Part shown: positions 3,517 to 49,271 of the stretch, one piece after another
How the letters are laid out: each line of letters starts with the position of its first letter
Numbering within the stretch: the stretch's first letter is position 1
Source: Glycomyces albidus
GTDB taxonomy: Bacteria > Actinomycetota > Actinomycetes > Mycobacteriales > Micromonosporaceae
Assembly (NCBI RefSeq): GCF_009451885.1
Contig: NZ_WIAO01000001.1
Span: 124,001-188,000 of the forward strand
Direction: 5' to 3'
Length of the DNA stretch: 64,000 nt
The notes under the pieces: generated by a model
Database searches by the model: none
What the model saw: only the letters and a program-made list of their open reading frames with translations
Told to the model about the DNA's origin: nothing
Made by a program: the position numbers and the translations under genes

Positions 3517-5022
3517 TCAGTGCGCGAGGGCCGGTGCCGCGCCTTCGGTAGCGGGCTTGCGGACGAAGAACGCCGCGGCCACGGCGATGACGGCCATGCC
3601 GGTGCCCCACAGGAACGCGGTGTGGATGCCGTCGGCGGTCGCGGTGACCGCGTCGGCGCCGGTCTCCAGGCTCGCGGTCGCGCCGGTGGTCATCAGCGTG
3701 ATGAACACGGCGGTGCCCACGGCGCCGGCGAACTGCTGGAGGGTGGAGAGGACGGCGCTGCCGTGCGAGTACAGGTCCATCTTCAGCGACCCGAGCGACG
3801 AGGTCATGAGCGGCGTCATGAGCAGGCTCAGGCTCAGGCTCATGACGACGTGGATGACGACGACGAACCAGACCGGGCTCGACTCGCTCAGCAGGGTCAG
3901 CCCCCCGAGCGCGCCGAGGAGCCCGAACGAGCCGGGGATCACCAGCGGGCGCGGACCGAACCGGTCGTAGAGGCGGCCGATCGTCGGGCCGGTCAGGCCC
4001 ATCGCGAGTCCGCCGGGGAGGACCACCAGGCCGGTCTGGAACGTCGAGAGCTCCAGGACGTCCTGCAGGTACATCGGCAGCAGGATGAGCGACCCGAACA
4101 GGGCCGCCATCGAGACCAGCAGCATGACGATGCCGACGGTGAACGTGCGGCTGAGGAACACCCGCAGGTCCATCAGGGCCGAGTCGGTGCGCTGGAGCAG
4201 GAGCTGGCGGTACACGAACAGCGCCAGGGAGACCGCCCCCGCGGTGATCGCCATCCACGGTTCGACGAACGGCTCGTGCCCGGCGGCGGCTTCGCCGAGG
4301 GAGCTGAGGCCGTAGATGAGGCCGCCGAAGGCGACCGCGGACAGCAGCGCGGAGAGCAGGTCGAACTTGACCGGGCGGGGCTCGCCGAGGTTCTGGATCT
4401 TGAAGGCGCCCAGGACCAGGCCGAGGACGGCGATGGGCAGCACCGACAGGAACATCCACTGCCAGGGCAGGTTCTCGAGGATGAACCCGGAGAAGGTGGG
4501 GCCGATCGCCGGCGCGACGGCGATGACGATGGTGATGAAGCCGATGGTGCGCCCGCGCCGGTCGGCGGGGACGAAGGTCATCACGGTGGTCATGAGCAGC
4601 GGCAGCATCACGGCGGTGCCGCTGGCCTGGATCACGCGCGCGGCGACGAGGACGCCGAACACCGGGGCCGCCGCGGCGAGGACCGTGCCGGCGGTGAACA
4701 GGGTCATCGCGGCGATGAACACGGTCCGGGTGGTGAAGCGCTGGAGGATGAGCCCGGTCATGGGGATCACGACCGCCATGGTGAGCATGAAGGCGGTGGT
4801 GAGCCACTGGACGGTGGAGGCGGTCAGCGTGAACTGCTCCATCAGCTCCGGGAGTGCGACGCCCATGATGGTCTCGTTGAGGATCATCACGAACGCCGCC
4901 ACCAGCAGCACGCCGAGCACGAGTTTGATCTGGGCCGGGACGCCCGTCTCCGCGGCGGGTTCGACCGTCTCAGGGGGTCCGGCCGCTTCGGGTGTGTCGG
5001 CCGGTCGCTGGTCAACGCTCAT
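3517..5022 (-). CDS. MFS multidrug transporter, DHA2 (EmrB/QacA) family
   Basis: The 501-residue integral membrane protein has 14 predicted hydrophobic segments, as in drug:proton antiporters of the DHA2 family. Family landmarks are NETIMGVALPEL in helix 1, QWLTTAFMLTMAVVIPMTG in helix 2, AARVIQASGTAVMLPL (the A-like motif region) and ADRRGRTIGF in the loop after it. It should export amphipathic compounds using the proton gradient. It is divergently placed from the TetR gene at 5141 with 118 bases between starts, the usual arrangement of a pump under its own repressor. A strong hairpin terminator follows it. Confidence 0.9.
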   Translation of the reverse strand: MSVDQRPADTPEAAGPPETVEPAAETGVPAQIKLVLGVLLVAAFVMILNETIMGVALPELMEQFTLTASTVQWLTTAFMLTMAVVIPMTGLILQRFTTRTVFIAAMTLFTAGTVLAAAAPVFGVLVAARVIQASGTAVMLPLLMTTVMTFVPADRRGRTIGFITIVIAVAPAIGPTFSGFILENLPWQWMFLSVLPIAVLGLVLGAFKIQNLGEPRPVKFDLLSALLSAVAFGGLIYGLSSLGEAAAGHEPFVEPWMAITAGAVSLALFVYRQLLLQRTDSALMDLRVFLSRTFTVGIVMLLVSMAALFGSLILLPMYLQDVLELSTFQTGLVVLPGGLAMGLTGPTIGRLYDRFGPRPLVIPGSFGLLGALGGLTLLSESSPVWFVVVIHVVMSLSLSLLMTPLMTSSLGSLKMDLYSHGSAVLSTLQQFAGAVGTAVFITLMTTGATASLETGADAVTATADGIHTAFLWGTGMAVIAVAAAFFVRKPATEGAAPALAH

Positions 5023-5106
5023 GGGGTTCCTTCAGGTGTGGTGGCCTTGCCGGTGCGGTCGGGTCCGCGCTGCGGTGACGACGCGGACGCACCGGAAGTG
5101 TCAGTG

Positions 5107-5123
5107 GCTGTCAATCATTGCAG
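5107..5123. promoter_or_regulatory. Candidate TetR operator between the MFS pump and its regulator
   Basis: The divergent intergenic region holds the inverted repeat CAATCATTG (5112-5120) inside the imperfect dyad GGCTGTCAATCATTGCA. On the minus strand the same bases contain TTGACA, a good -35 element for the MFS gene. The operator would sit on the promoter, and only about 20 bases from the TetR start codon, so both genes could be repressed from one site. Confidence 0.4.
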
Positions 5124-5140
5124 TTGCTACCATCCGGTGC

Positions 5141-5734
5141 ATGGCCGCCGGTGGGAGTCTGCGAGAAGTGTCACGTCGGGCCGTGCAGTCGCGCATTGCA
5201 CGGACCGCCGAGTCGCTGTTCGTGGCCAAGGGATTCGAGGAGACGACCGTCGACGAGATCGCCGCGGCGGTCGGCATGTCGCAGCGGAGCTTCTTCAGGT
5301 ACTTCTCCTCGAAGGACGAGGTCGTGCTCGACAGCCTGGAGCGGCTGGGAGAGGACCTCGCGGCGCGGCTGGCGTCGCGCCCGCCCGGCGAGCCCGAGTG
5401 GGACTCCCTGCGGCGCGCGTTCGACCCGGTGGTGGAGCGCTTCGGCGACCCAGTATTGCGCAGCCACGACGCCGCGATCCAGCGAATTATCGACGGCAGC
5501 CCGCGCCTGCTCGCCTCGTACCTGTGCCGGCTCGAGCGCCTCCAGCGGGTGCTGACCGAGGCGCTCATGGAACGGGCCGGCGACGGCGCCGACGCGGTAG
5601 TGCTGCGCGCCATGGTCGGCGGGGCCTTCGCGTGCCTGCACGCCTCGGCGTTCCCGACGATCGAGGACCCTGAGGCGTTCGGCCCGTGCCTGGACCGGAC
5701 CATGGCGGCGCTCAGGCCGGTCGCCGCGCGCTGA
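5141..5734 (+). CDS. TetR/AcrR family transcriptional regulator
   Basis: The 197-residue protein has the TetR N-terminal helix-turn-helix: RIARTAESLFVAKGFEETTVDEIAAAVGMSQ, with the recognition helix and YFSSKDEVV next to it. The C-terminal ligand-binding domain resembles the MftR-like TetR group. The start ATG at 5141 is 21 bases before the HTH region and fits the usual short N-terminal arm. The divergent DHA2 pump makes it the likely local repressor, released by a pump substrate. The frame is open far upstream, antisense to the pump gene; that extension is an artefact. Confidence 0.85.
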   Translation: MAAGGSLREVSRRAVQSRIARTAESLFVAKGFEETTVDEIAAAVGMSQRSFFRYFSSKDEVVLDSLERLGEDLAARLASRPPGEPEWDSLRRAFDPVVERFGDPVLRSHDAAIQRIIDGSPRLLASYLCRLERLQRVLTEALMERAGDGADAVVLRAMVGGAFACLHASAFPTIEDPEAFGPCLDRTMAALRPVAAR

Positions 5735-46194: not shown

Positions 46195-46551
46195 ATGGCT
46201 GAGACTTCCCCGAACCCGGTCGCCGCGCCGGAGAAGACCCGAACCAGCGAACCCCGGCGCCGCGAACCGCTGTGGCGCGACGTCCTCGGCGAGCAGCTCC
46301 GCTCCACCCGCCGCGAGCGCGGCGAGACCCTGAGCGAGACCGCCGACCGCGCCGGCATCTCCCCGCAGTACCTCTCCGAGATGGAACGCGGCGTCAAAGA
46401 GCCCTCGAGCGAGATGATCGCCGCCGTCGCCGGCGCCCTCGACACGACCCTCGGCGACCTGGTCCTGCAAGTCGCCGAACGCATCATCCTCGAACGCACC
46501 GAGACCCCGTCCGGTCCGGTCTGCCAGGCGGCGTACGCGCTCGCGGCCTAG
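46195..46551 (+). CDS. XRE-family regulator with SsrA-like C-terminal tail
   Basis: The 118-residue protein has a Cro/C1-type helix-turn-helix: LRSTRRERGETLSETADRA and then ISPQYLSEMERGVKEPSSE. The last helix pattern (YLSEMERGxKEPSSE) matches the ClgR/PopR group that activates clp genes. The C-terminus ends QAAYALAA, the same last five residues (YALAA) as the classic SsrA degradation tag. In Streptomyces, PopR and ClgR are ClpP substrates with C-terminal alanines. Here clpP genes lie 1-2.5 kb away on the other strand, so a regulator that is degraded by the protease it controls is plausible. Confidence 0.75.
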   Translation: MAETSPNPVAAPEKTRTSEPRRREPLWRDVLGEQLRSTRRERGETLSETADRAGISPQYLSEMERGVKEPSSEMIAAVAGALDTTLGDLVLQVAERIILERTETPSGPVCQAAYALAA

Positions 46552-46600: not shown

Positions 46601-47377
46601 TCACGTCTGCCCGGCGACCTCGTACCGCAGCCAGAGCATGCCGTCGTCCTCGGCGTCCGCTGACATGAGCCGCAGGCGCACCGGGGCGTCGCCTTCGGCG
46701 AGTTCAGGGCCGTCGAACAGCGACGGCACGCCCGTGCCGCCGATCGCCGCAGGCGCCACCAGCAGCTCCACCTCGTCGACCAGGCCGGCCCGCAGCAGCG
46801 CCCCGCCGAGCCGGCCGCCGCCGGTGGCGACCACGCACGCCACGCCCAGCCGCTCCCGCATCCGCCGCAGCGCCGCGCCGAGGTCCACCCGCTCCTCCCC
46901 CGCCACCAGGTACGGGATGCCTTCGGCGCGGAGGAACGAGAGGTACGCCGCCGGCGCCGCCCGAGCGGTCAGGACCAGCAGGTCCGCACCGCCCACGCGC
47001 TTCATGGTCCAGCGCACGCGGCCGCGCCCGTCGACGACCGCGAACCAGCTCTCGTGCCCCTCGCGCCCGACCAGCTCGGGCGGCAGGTGGTCGGCGAGCA
47101 GGTCCGGCTTTGACTCGTGCCCCGGACCGAACGGCGAGGCCGCCGCGTCGGCCACGAGGCTCCCGCTGCCTTCGAGCGTCGCGTAATGCCCGTACCGGTC
47201 GCGCAGCCGCTCGGCGCGCAGCGCCTCGAGGCGCTGCGCGCTCTCGGGCAGCATCGACTGCCAGGCGTCGGCATTGGCCGGCTCGATCAGGCGCCGGTCG
47301 CCGCCGAGCGTCAGCCGCCCGTCGACCGAGGTCGTCACGGAGACCACCACGCGCGGGCGCTCGGTTTCGGAGGCCAT
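46601..47377 (-). CDS. RibD-type dihydrofolate reductase-fold reductase
   Basis: The 258-residue protein has the RibD C-terminal/DHFR-like fold: RVVVSVTTSVDGRLTLGG at the start, CVVATGGGRLGGALLRAGLVDEVELLVAPAAIGG in the second half, and a NADPH-binding loop. It lacks an N-terminal deaminase domain, so it is a stand-alone pyrimidine-deazaflavin or general reductase rather than RibD itself. The start at 47377 follows GGGAGCGG. It is convergent with the XRE gene. Confidence 0.78.
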   Translation of the reverse strand: MASETERPRVVVSVTTSVDGRLTLGGDRRLIEPANADAWQSMLPESAQRLEALRAERLRDRYGHYATLEGSGSLVADAAASPFGPGHESKPDLLADHLPPELVGREGHESWFAVVDGRGRVRWTMKRVGGADLLVLTARAAPAAYLSFLRAEGIPYLVAGEERVDLGAALRRMRERLGVACVVATGGGRLGGALLRAGLVDEVELLVAPAAIGGTGVPSLFDGPELAEGDAPVRLRLMSADAEDDGMLWLRYEVAGQT

Positions 47378-47521
47378 CGCCGCTCCCTTCGACGTCGCAC
47401 CTCCATGCATACCGCGGACCTCCGACAATCGCGTCCCGACGTTCGCGTCTCGTCGATGCGAAGCGGCGGTCCCGGGGCGCCCCGGGACCGCCGCGCTCGG
47501 TTTCCTTGTCGCGGTGTTTCC

Positions 47522-48109
47522 TTACTGCGGTTCGAGGATGTTGTCGATCAGGCCGTAGTCCCGGGCCGTCTCGGCCGTGAAGACGCGGTCGCGGTCGGTG
47601 TCGGCGCGGAGCTGCTCGGCGGACTGGCCGGTGTGGCGCGCCAGGATCTGCTCGATGCTGTCGCGGACCCGCACGACCTCGTCGGCCTGGATGATCAGGT
47701 CCGGGATCGTCCCGCGGCCCTGCGCCGCGGGCTGGTCGAGGACGATCCTGGCGTGCGGCAGGGCCGACCGCTTGCCCTCGGCGCCGGCCGCGAGCAGGAC
47801 CGCGCCGACGCCCATGGCCTGGCCGACGCAGAGCGTGGCGACGTTCGGCCTGATGTATCGCAGCGTGTCGTAGACCGCGAGCATCGCGCTCGGGTCGCCG
47901 CCCTCGCAGTTGATGTAGAAGTTGACGTCCTTGTCGGGGTTCGCCTCCTCCAGGTGCAGCAGCTGCGCCACCAGCGCGTTCGCCACTCCCGCGTCGATGG
48001 CCGTCCCCAGGTAGATGATCCGCCCGGACAGCAGGTGCGAGTACACGTCCATGACGCGCTCGCCGCGGCCCTGGTCGACGATCACGTTCGGGATCATGTA
48101 GCTGCTCAT
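47522..48109 (-). CDS. ClpP-like subunit lacking catalytic Ser and His
   Basis: The 195-residue protein keeps the ClpP fold and length: SSYMIPNVIVDQGRGERVMD, RIIYLGTAI, FYINCEGGDPSAMLAVYDT and TDRDRVFTAETARDYGLID. The nucleophile motif, normally GQAASMG, reads GQAMGVG, so Ser is Gly100. The histidine motif, normally IHQP, reads VLDQP, so His is Asp125. Asp174 is retained. It is therefore a probable non-proteolytic subunit, like ClpR of cyanobacteria. It overlaps an apparently active clpP by four bases, so a mixed ring is likely. The gene is intact and not a decayed pseudogene by frame. Confidence 0.85.
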   Translation of the reverse strand: MSSYMIPNVIVDQGRGERVMDVYSHLLSGRIIYLGTAIDAGVANALVAQLLHLEEANPDKDVNFYINCEGGDPSAMLAVYDTLRYIRPNVATLCVGQAMGVGAVLLAAGAEGKRSALPHARIVLDQPAAQGRGTIPDLIIQADEVVRVRDSIEQILARHTGQSAEQLRADTDRDRVFTAETARDYGLIDNILEPQ

Positions 48110-48735
48110 CGGGTTCCCCTCTCCGCTGCGACGCGCAGGCCGATGCCCGGGCGCTCCTTCGGTGCGATCTCGTCGAACGAGGCCACGATGCCGTCGATGA
48201 ACCCGTATTCGCGGGCCTCCTCCGCGGAGTACCAGCGGTCGCGCAGCGAGTCCTCGAAGATCCGCTCGACCGGCTGGCCCGTGTCCTCCGCGATCAGGCC
48301 GAGGACCGTGTCCCTCGTGTAGCGCAGGTCGTTGGCCTGCAACTCGATGTCGACCGCGGCCCCGCCGATGCCCGAGGACCCCTGGTGCATGAGGATCCGC
48401 GCGTGCGGCAGCGCCCGCCGCTTCCCCCTCGTCCCGGCGGAGAGCAGGAACTGCCCTGCGCTGCAGGCGATGCCGAGGGCCAGCGTCGCGACGTCGCACG
48501 GCACCAGCCGCATCGTGTCGCGGATCGCCAGCATCGCCGGGACCGAACCTCCCGGGGAGTGGATCCACAGCGAGATGTCGCCCGACGGGTCCTCGATCGC
48601 CAGCGACAGCATCTGGGTCGCCAGCAGCGTCCCGTTGTCGTCGTCGAGTACGCCGTCGAGCACGAGCACCCGCTGCTGGTACAACTCGCGCCGCACGCGT
48701 TCGGAGAACTGCTGCGGCCTCTTGTCTTCGCTCAT
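48106..48735 (-). CDS. clpP: ATP-dependent Clp protease proteolytic subunit
   Basis: The 209-residue subunit has an intact triad: Ser92 in LGIACSAGQFLLSAG, His117 in HARILMHQGSSG and Asp166 in EDSLRDRWYS. The N-terminus is short. It should form a heptameric ring stacked with the divergent partner encoded downstream and work with a ClpX or ClpC ATPase. The nucleophile motif reads ACSAGQ rather than AASMGA, a noteworthy departure, so it is not the housekeeping ClpP1 or ClpP2. It is first in the two-gene operon. Confidence 0.88.
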   Translation of the reverse strand: MSEDKRPQQFSERVRRELYQQRVLVLDGVLDDDNGTLLATQMLSLAIEDPSGDISLWIHSPGGSVPAMLAIRDTMRLVPCDVATLALGIACSAGQFLLSAGTRGKRRALPHARILMHQGSSGIGGAAVDIELQANDLRYTRDTVLGLIAEDTGQPVERIFEDSLRDRWYSAEEAREYGFIDGIVASFDEIAPKERPGIGLRVAAERGTR

Positions 48736-48813
48736 GCCGCAACCCTGCGCGACACGGCCCCTTCCCCGCCACCGAATCCGCCCTGAGCAGATCCGCTCTG
48801 AGCAGCGCGGCCG

Positions 48814-48866: not shown

Positions 48867-49271
48867 TCAGGCGTTGAGGGCCTCGGTGATCTTGCGGGTC
48901 ATCTCGGCCATGACCGGGCTCGGCGCGCCCTTGTGCGCGCGGTTCGCGGCTTCGACCGCGATGGCGACCGTGGTGCGGAAGTTCTCCGCCTCGGCCTCGT
49001 CCTGCGCATTGAGCAGTGCGACCGACTCCGACAGGGCCGGAAGGACGTAGTCGGCGATCTCGGCGGCGGACTTGCCCTTGACGTTGAAGTCGTTCTTCTT
49101 GGAGGCCAGCACGTGCCCGACCTCGCCGGTGGCGGAGGCGTACGCGAGCGAGCCCTCGGTGGCGACCTTGTGGGCCGACCCGGCGATGCCCGCGAAGGAC
49201 AGGAGGGTGACGGCGCCGAAGGCGGCGGTGCGAATGGTGGACTTGTCCTGGGCGGTGAGGTTGATCGACAT
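48867..49271 (-). CDS. Conserved hypothetical protein, 134 residues
   Basis: The protein begins MSINLTAQDKSTIRTAAFGA, has one hydrophobic stretch (VTLLSFAGIAGSA), and then a mostly helical region with SATGEVGHVLASKKND and PALSESVALLNAQ. Close relatives are known only as hypothetical proteins in actinobacteria. No domain or active site is recognised. AAGGAGC precedes the ATG. The gene is alone, with a 256-base gap upstream in which I see no gene. Confidence 0.7.
   Translation of the reverse strand: MSINLTAQDKSTIRTAAFGAVTLLSFAGIAGSAHKVATEGSLAYASATGEVGHVLASKKNDFNVKGKSAAEIADYVLPALSESVALLNAQDEAEAENFRTTVAIAVEAANRAHKGAPSPVMAEMTRKITEALNA

Follow-up and report, generated by a model that had tools for sequence, protein, structure and literature searches.

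A PopR-linked clpP operon of Glycomyces pairing an intact ClpP subunit with one that has lost its catalytic triad

We analysed a stretch of 64,000 nucleotides of Glycomyces albidus DNA (the window, to which all coordinates refer) that carries two adjoining clpP genes, here called A and B. The locus has the following features.

46195..46551, plus strand: PopR-like XRE/HTH regulator of 118 aa ending in ...AYALAA, situated beyond gene B and facing the operon
46601-47428, minus strand: gene with a RibD_C domain, between gene B and the regulator
47522..48109, minus strand: gene B, ClpP2-type subunit of 195 aa with Gly100, Asp125 and Asp174 at the triad positions and N-Y-Y in the docking pocket
48106..48109, minus strand: ATGA, the 4-nt overlap of the stop codon of A with the start codon of B
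48106..48735, minus strand: gene A, ClpP1-type subunit of 209 aa with the triad Ser92/His117/Asp166 intact and S-W-L in the docking pocket
48777..48806, minus strand: pair of tandem 15-nt copies (GCTGCTCAGAGCGGA, TCTGCTCAGGGCGGA); the start codon of A follows after 41 nt
48867-49271, minus strand: gene of 134 aa without a Pfam match, preceding gene A

The Pfam family CLP_protease (PF00574) spans nearly the full length of both proteins, with 184 and 216 bits. A is similar to ClpP1 of the mycobacterial structure 4u0g, and B to the common ClpP/ClpP2 type. The triad by which ClpP is recognised as an active serine protease is present in A and incomplete in B. By numbering, Ser92, His117 and Asp166 of A are where the original prediction had placed them, and its second statement, that B has neither the serine nor the histidine, was borne out as well. 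The serine position of B is Gly100 (codon GGC at 47812-47810), there is no serine within its own GQAMGVG motif, and the histidine position is Asp125 (codon GAC at 47737-47735). Asp174 is the retained catalytic aspartate, so that two of the three triad residues are gone. The choice of the catalytic aspartate follows from numbered ClpPs and is consistent with the Asp166 that had been proposed for A. The rest of B had been called intact. This needs a small correction, since the NSPGG segment is NCEGG in B. The NCEGG variant is found in 117 of 207 PopR-linked pairs (defined below), and in 116 of these 117 the triad is lost. AlphaFold models of B and A had a mean pLDDT of 44 and 52, respectively; they were set aside and no conclusion makes use of them. 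An Rfam scan of the 64-kb window gave no match.

The Glycomyces genome (5.76 Mb) has four clpP genes, namely the A/B pair and a housekeeping pair on contig C6. Three Clp ATPase candidates are found in the same genome, one of which is a 454-aa frame adjoining the housekeeping clpP pair.

Two sets of loci were compared with the window. The first comprises 81 loci, the window and the best 80 of 441 related named loci, including members of the orders Streptosporangiales, Glycomycetales, Micrococcales, Propionibacteriales, Frankiales, Micromonosporales and Kitasatosporales. The second comprises 130 genomes with PopR-linked pairs, one row per genome, drawn from Glycomyces and from the survey loci described below and excluding the 80 named loci. 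A pair was counted as PopR-linked when a ClpP1-type gene lay on the same strand within 300 nt and a regulator match was found on the opposite strand in the fetched stretch.

The regulator gene was best matched by the NCBIfam model of ClgR, its paralogue, at 69.8 bits and thus below the cut-off of 170 bits; a second, weaker PopR/ClgR-like match with 43% identity occurs in the same genome. The terminal Ala-Ala of PopR is a degradation signal (PMC9775585). A regulator match was found in 76 of the 81 best loci, with an LAA end in 74, and 123 of the 130 PopR-linked genomes have a regulator with AA at its C-terminus. In a Hamadaea MAG (L055) the PopR-like gene (3929-4195) is upstream of A and divergent, whereas elsewhere it is downstream and convergent. 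Upstream of A, the second of the two tandem copies (48777-48791) differs by one mismatch from the PopR-box half-site TCTGCCNNNGGCRRA, which derives from the published PopR site quoted in a review (PMC9775585); the first copy fits less well, and the site is a predicted one. With up to one mismatch, a box-like site is present upstream of A in 70 of the 81 loci (best 80 of 441 plus the window) compared with 4 of 405 mononucleotide shuffles, and in 96 of the 130 genomes compared with 4 of 650 shuffles in two-base blocks. Of 27 regions that precede housekeeping clpP, only 3 have such a site. A looser pattern, written after the window had been read, matches twice in the 64 kb at one mismatch and exactly only here.

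The locus thus has a bicistron of a ClpP1-type and a ClpP2-type gene, a PopR-like regulator ending in Ala-Ala and a box before the first gene, as in the clpP3clpP4 type. Judged by these sequence features, A/B corresponds to the clpP3clpP4 operon that PopR controls in Streptomyces. The overlap of the A stop codon and the B start codon is found in 80 of the 81 best loci and likely leads to translational coupling of A and B. The RibD_C gene had no match in the 80 named loci (best 80 of 441, flanks of up to 5 kb) and therefore looks like a local insertion. The 134-aa gene was found among these 80 loci in three close Glycomyces only (L034, L035 and L036).

An orthologue of B is present in 19 of 22 Glycomyces genomes, three being without one. 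At the serine position these 19 orthologues have Ala (15) or Gly (4) and never Ser, and at the histidine position Asp (11) or His (8). In the set of 81 loci (best 80 of 441 plus the window) the serine position of B is Ala in 74, Gly in five, Asp in one and Ser in one. The histidine is kept in 71, and the other ten are all from Glycomyces; among these loci the loss of the histidine is therefore restricted to Glycomyces, and the loss of the serine is clade-wide. Asp174 of B and the complete Ser-His-Asp triad of A are kept in 81 of 81. A sequencing error or a normal triad in the close homologues had been named as findings that would overturn the original prediction. Neither was encountered: the serine is absent from 19 of 19 Glycomyces orthologues and from 80 of the 81 wider loci, which also rules out an accident of the strain, and triad loss is common to the close homologues. 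As far as can be judged from the genes, the claim that a single operon encodes an active and a catalytically dead subunit is supported.

The one locus with the serine is Actinomadura hibisca L048, where B (5001-5579) reads GQAVSVG, with His and Asp present and NCEGG unchanged. It is possibly a reversal, or else a natural test of reviving the site.

Compared with the window, the dN/dS ratio was 0.12-0.37 for B and 0.08-0.25 for A (nine Glycomyces loci each), and about 0.06-0.17 for the housekeeping ClpP2 (five loci). B is therefore under purifying selection, with weaker constraint than ClpP2. Together with the conserved A/B overlap, the dN/dS values rule out a pseudogene.

The wider distribution was assessed in two surveys. 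An even draw over the phylum (246 genomes) gave seven matches to B at E<=1e-75, one of them housekeeping-like. In a survey of the class (394 genomes) the cut-off of E<=1e-67 was reached in 150 genomes, some of the matches being housekeeping ClpP2, and in 244 it was not. From the 150, 80 further loci not yet included were fetched, down to about E 4e-71; four genomes in that range (G403, G365, G472 and G424) and all weaker matches, with any weaker PopR operons, were left out of this set. From one search of 41 genomes only the best matches were taken as loci. Proteins shorter than 150 aa were dropped (for A, shorter than 141 aa in the pair table).

In the 130 PopR-linked genomes the triad of A is intact without exception, and that of B is intact in 33, a frequency that is not unbiased because the sample was drawn by similarity to B. 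The serine of B is gone in 64 genomes, the histidine in 37 and the aspartate in 24; in four, Asp to Asn is the only change. Ala, Gly, Trp, Glu and Phe are among the replacements of the serine, Gly, Asp and Gln among those of the histidine, and Asn, His, Thr, Ser, Ala and Glu among those of the aspartate. A dead subunit of this kind had been expected to be notable in an actinobacterium. This expectation has to be given up, as 97 of the 130 genomes, sampled by similarity to B, encode a B-type subunit without at least one triad residue. Over the 113 PopR-linked survey pairs (window included) the loss extends to 29 of 43 genera and 11 of 16 families, and an oddity of Glycomyces alone is ruled out by this wider survey. 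Among 26 survey pairs with no regulator match the triad of B is intact in 18 and not intact in eight. The controls, taken as the best matches to a housekeeping query and in the 130-genome analysis also as having no regulator match, kept the triad throughout, both for ClpP2 (29 of 29 and 26 of 26 in the two sets) and for ClpP1 (28 of 28 and 26 of 26).

Some replacements are bulky or charged. Trp stands at the serine position in L176, L179, L208 and L226, Phe in L235, and Glu in L191, L209, L211 and relatives. Judged by the residues, these three would fill the active site, which goes beyond disarming it. One PopR-linked pair lies in the same phylum but outside the class (L118 of G134); its B has Ala for the aspartate, and the serine and histidine stay.

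Different clades lost Ser, His or Asp, which rules out a single common loss. A careful tree of 66 sequences, with one row per genus and state and the three triad columns removed, needs seven changes of the state "triad lost", five of which are forced by well-supported branches; a single origin was allowed in 0% of 200 bootstrap trees. A larger quick tree of 136 rows also needs seven changes, only three of them forced. An inactive B is no necessity, as 33 of the 130 genomes have a B with an intact triad.

The serine-less type of the operon is scattered over many families (L103, L121-L127, L150-L171 and L292). It occurs in Embleya, a member of the Streptomycetaceae; the histidine-less type is found in S. 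fungicidicus. One serine-less copy is on a Tsukamurella plasmid record, and a plasmid collection gave a further match (H1, Embleya). The scatter over families and the plasmid copy suggest horizontal transfer.

The loss of catalysis in B has a counterpart in A. In Streptomyces ClpP1P2, docking of the ATPases is restricted to ClpP2, whose pocket is the only one required (PMC9765437), and the mycobacterial ATPases require the ClpP2 face (PMC4416901). We scored the equivalents of E. coli Y74, Y76 and F96, the same three pocket positions that had been mutated in the Streptomyces (PMC9765437) and mycobacterial (PMC4416901) studies. Tyr65 and Tyr85 of B are spaced by 20 residues, which equals the spacing of the second and third of these positions. 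In the 130 PopR-linked genomes the second and third positions are both aromatic in 116 B and in three A subunits, a reading that covers three positions only and in which the Leu of A remains hydrophobic. The remaining 14 B subunits have His at the third position. Both aromatics are found in 49 of 54 housekeeping ClpP1 and in 55 of 55 housekeeping ClpP2. The first position is aromatic in one of 130 A subunits, compared with 31 of 54 housekeeping ClpP1. Mycobacterial ClpP1, which is on the non-docking side, has one aromatic out of three (PMC4416901), and in S. hawaiiensis ClpP1 the replacement of Tyr by Ser at the first position impaired ADEP binding (PMC9765437).

Both aromatics are kept by three of the 33 A subunits with an intact partner and by none of the 97 whose partner B has lost the triad. 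As even with an intact B only three of 33 A subunits keep both, this suggests that the loss of the pocket in A came first. Phe at the third position together with a non-aromatic second one is frequent, however, among the A partners of an intact B, so there was more than one route to the loss of the pocket.

At the level of sequence, the analysis shows which residues B has lost, that operon and box are conserved, that pocket and triad were lost reciprocally, and that there were several independent losses and purifying selection; the assembly of A and B, the docking side and the regulation in Glycomyces we infer. We consider it probable, at roughly 0.7, that A and B make up a reserve Clp protease under a PopR-like activator, in which A forms the cutting ring and B a dead docking ring. 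According to published work on Streptomyces, ClpP1P2 degrades PopR, failure of ClpP1P2 leads to expression of clpP3clpP4, and ClpP3P4 is insensitive to ADEP and non-isofunctional (PMC9765437, PMC12607617). By analogy, a working housekeeping ClpP1P2 of Glycomyces would degrade the PopR-like regulator via its C-terminal Ala-Ala, and A and B would be silent. Upon failure or inhibition of ClpP1P2 the regulator would accumulate, bind the box upstream of A and switch on both genes. Their coupled synthesis would provide one ring of A stacked on one ring of B. The Clp ATPases would dock on the B face via its conserved Tyr/Phe pocket and thread the substrate through B, which would act as a dead docking and gating ring, and the seven sites of A would do all the cutting. 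The viability of S. lividans requires clpP1clpP2 or clpP3clpP4 (PMC9765437); if its ClpP4 is without the histidine like that of S. fungicidicus, such a core can sustain a cell.

For the PopR operons of actinobacteria it may be a recurrent rule that the two rings split their jobs completely, A having lost the ATPase/ADEP pocket first and B then catalysis at least five times, through different residues. We put this forward tentatively, as a scenario that is quite possible and still short of probable. As ClpP3P4 is ADEP-insensitive and switched on when ClpP1P2 fails, natural ClpP-directed antibiotics may have driven the split. If this is true, the cutting ring offers no pocket to hijack and the docking ring no nucleophile to poison.

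The original prediction had compared the pair with the cyanobacterial ClpP3/ClpR, in which both subunits share a ring. If A and B mixed within each ring in this style, B would dilute the active sites per heptamer. That such rings can work is known from Synechococcus, where three ClpP3 and four ClpR alternate in each ring of an active core (PMC4673316), and B is a full-length ClpP by homology. We regard this arrangement as unlikely for A and B, since the reciprocal loss of the pocket in A and the triad in B is better suited to separate rings and the two-subunit bacterial cores of such kind that have been studied, as far as covered by our sources, are stacked rings of a single kind. ClpP3/ClpR, with its alternating subunits (PMC4673316), is thus probably not the nearest model, because the studied actinobacterial ClpP1P2 cores are described as having one ring per kind, with ClpP1 cutting and ClpP2 docking the ATPase. 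It is rather improbable, and somewhat more so than mixed rings, that B, instead of belonging to a reserve protease, interferes with the housekeeping core, joining ClpP1 or ClpP2 and blocking or retuning it in the way ClpP-ADEP acts on ClpP1. The idea draws on ClpP-ADEP of S. hawaiiensis, a partner of ClpP2 that breaks up the complexes of ClpP1 (PMC12607617). It fits poorly with the gene arrangement, as in 80 of 81 loci (best 80 of 441 plus the window) B has a 4-nt overlap with its active partner A, and with the finding that clpP3clpP4 can replace clpP1clpP2 for the viability of S. lividans (PMC9765437).

Two further explanations concern B itself. It could be catalytic via other residues or only in complex with A, like Listeria ClpP1, which has Asn for Asp (Asn172) and whose active triad is aligned in the complex (PMC9765437). 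The four of 130 PopR-linked B subunits with Asp to Asn as the sole change would be compatible with this, but 64 of 130 have lost the very nucleophile, with Ala, Gly, Trp, Glu or Phe in its place, and the GQAMGVG motif of the window offers no serine, which makes catalysis by B very improbable. Least probable of all, by a small step, is that B is decaying and that the triad losses are neutral drift toward gene loss. An orthologue is missing from three of 22 Glycomyces genomes, different clades lost different residues, and the constraint on B is weaker than that on the housekeeping ClpP2, all of which would be compatible with decay. The dN/dS values are nevertheless well below 1, the frames are open without stops, the replaced triad positions are stable across wide clades, and the pocket and the overlap are conserved.

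The PopR operon as such was known. What is new, as far as we searched the literature, is that catalysis was lost repeatedly in its second subunit, with a matching loss of docking residues in its first. In two records examined the dead subunits are labelled plainly as "ATP-dependent Clp protease proteolytic subunit". Database remarks on inactive "ClpP-like" entries of Streptomyces may exist. Our literature search gave no statement of triad loss in ClpP4 or the second subunit of PopR operons, and the founding study, Viala 2000, which was outside this search, may note one; the search also gave no biochemistry or structure of the PopR-operon core (ClpP3P4). The shares of the active sites in actinobacterial ClpP1P2 are known from mutants, and evolution seems to have made and kept such mutations repeatedly. 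For the ClpP3P4 core the reading of A as cutting and B as docking ring leads to a prediction of the ring used by the ATPase and of the ring that cuts, and the PopR-operon pairs would give structural studies naturally occurring cores in which a single ring is active. According to published work on mixed cores, the inactivation of one subunit can increase the rate (PMC4673316). ADEP-resistant mutants of S. lividans express the reserve core (PMC12607617), which makes it relevant to the targeting of ClpP by antibiotics.

Among known systems the PopR-controlled clpP3clpP4 of Streptomyces is the closest. As read in S. fungicidicus, it has the same order of a ClpP1-type and a ClpP2-type gene and an opposite-strand regulator ending in Ala-Ala; its regulation has been demonstrated in S. 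lividans only. The ClpP4 of the named S. fungicidicus also has a broken triad, with Gly for His. Without exception, the 24 PopR-linked rows that family f4 has outside the genera g172 and g175 show the same exchange (SGD in 23, SGE in one), and this family we take to be Streptomycetaceae because its ClpP4 is nearly identical to that of S. fungicidicus. The latter has kept the serine and lost the histidine, whereas B of the window has lost the serine, as has its clade, and the histidine as well, and the two belong to separate clades of the tree.

ClpR of cyanobacteria and plastids is likewise a ClpP relative without a working triad and a partner to an active ClpP. With two of three residues gone, B fits the definition of ClpR as a ClpP homologue without the triad (PMC7966870). 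B differs in keeping the aspartate, and Synechococcus ClpR alternates with ClpP3 within rings (PMC4673316). In the NCBIfam comparison of B the general ClpP models ranked first. PRK12552, which we take to be the ClpR model, came seventh and below its cut-off, with 168.1 of 263 bits.

The ClpP and ClpR of the apicoplast, one active and one inactive and each reported to be homoheptameric, have the layout that we propose for A and B (PMC7966870). They differ in belonging to a plastid without PopR control, and a stable ClpP/ClpR tetradecamer was not obtained in that work (PMC7966870). The housekeeping ClpP1P2 of Streptomyces and mycobacteria is asymmetric as well, with ClpP1 as the main cutter and ClpP2 docking the ATPases; in Streptomyces the serine mutant of ClpP2 is fully active and that of ClpP1 is dead (PMC9765437). 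There, however, both triads are complete (55 of 55 ClpP2 and 54 of 54 ClpP1 in our controls), whereas in the PopR operons the division between the two subunits is fixed in the sequence.
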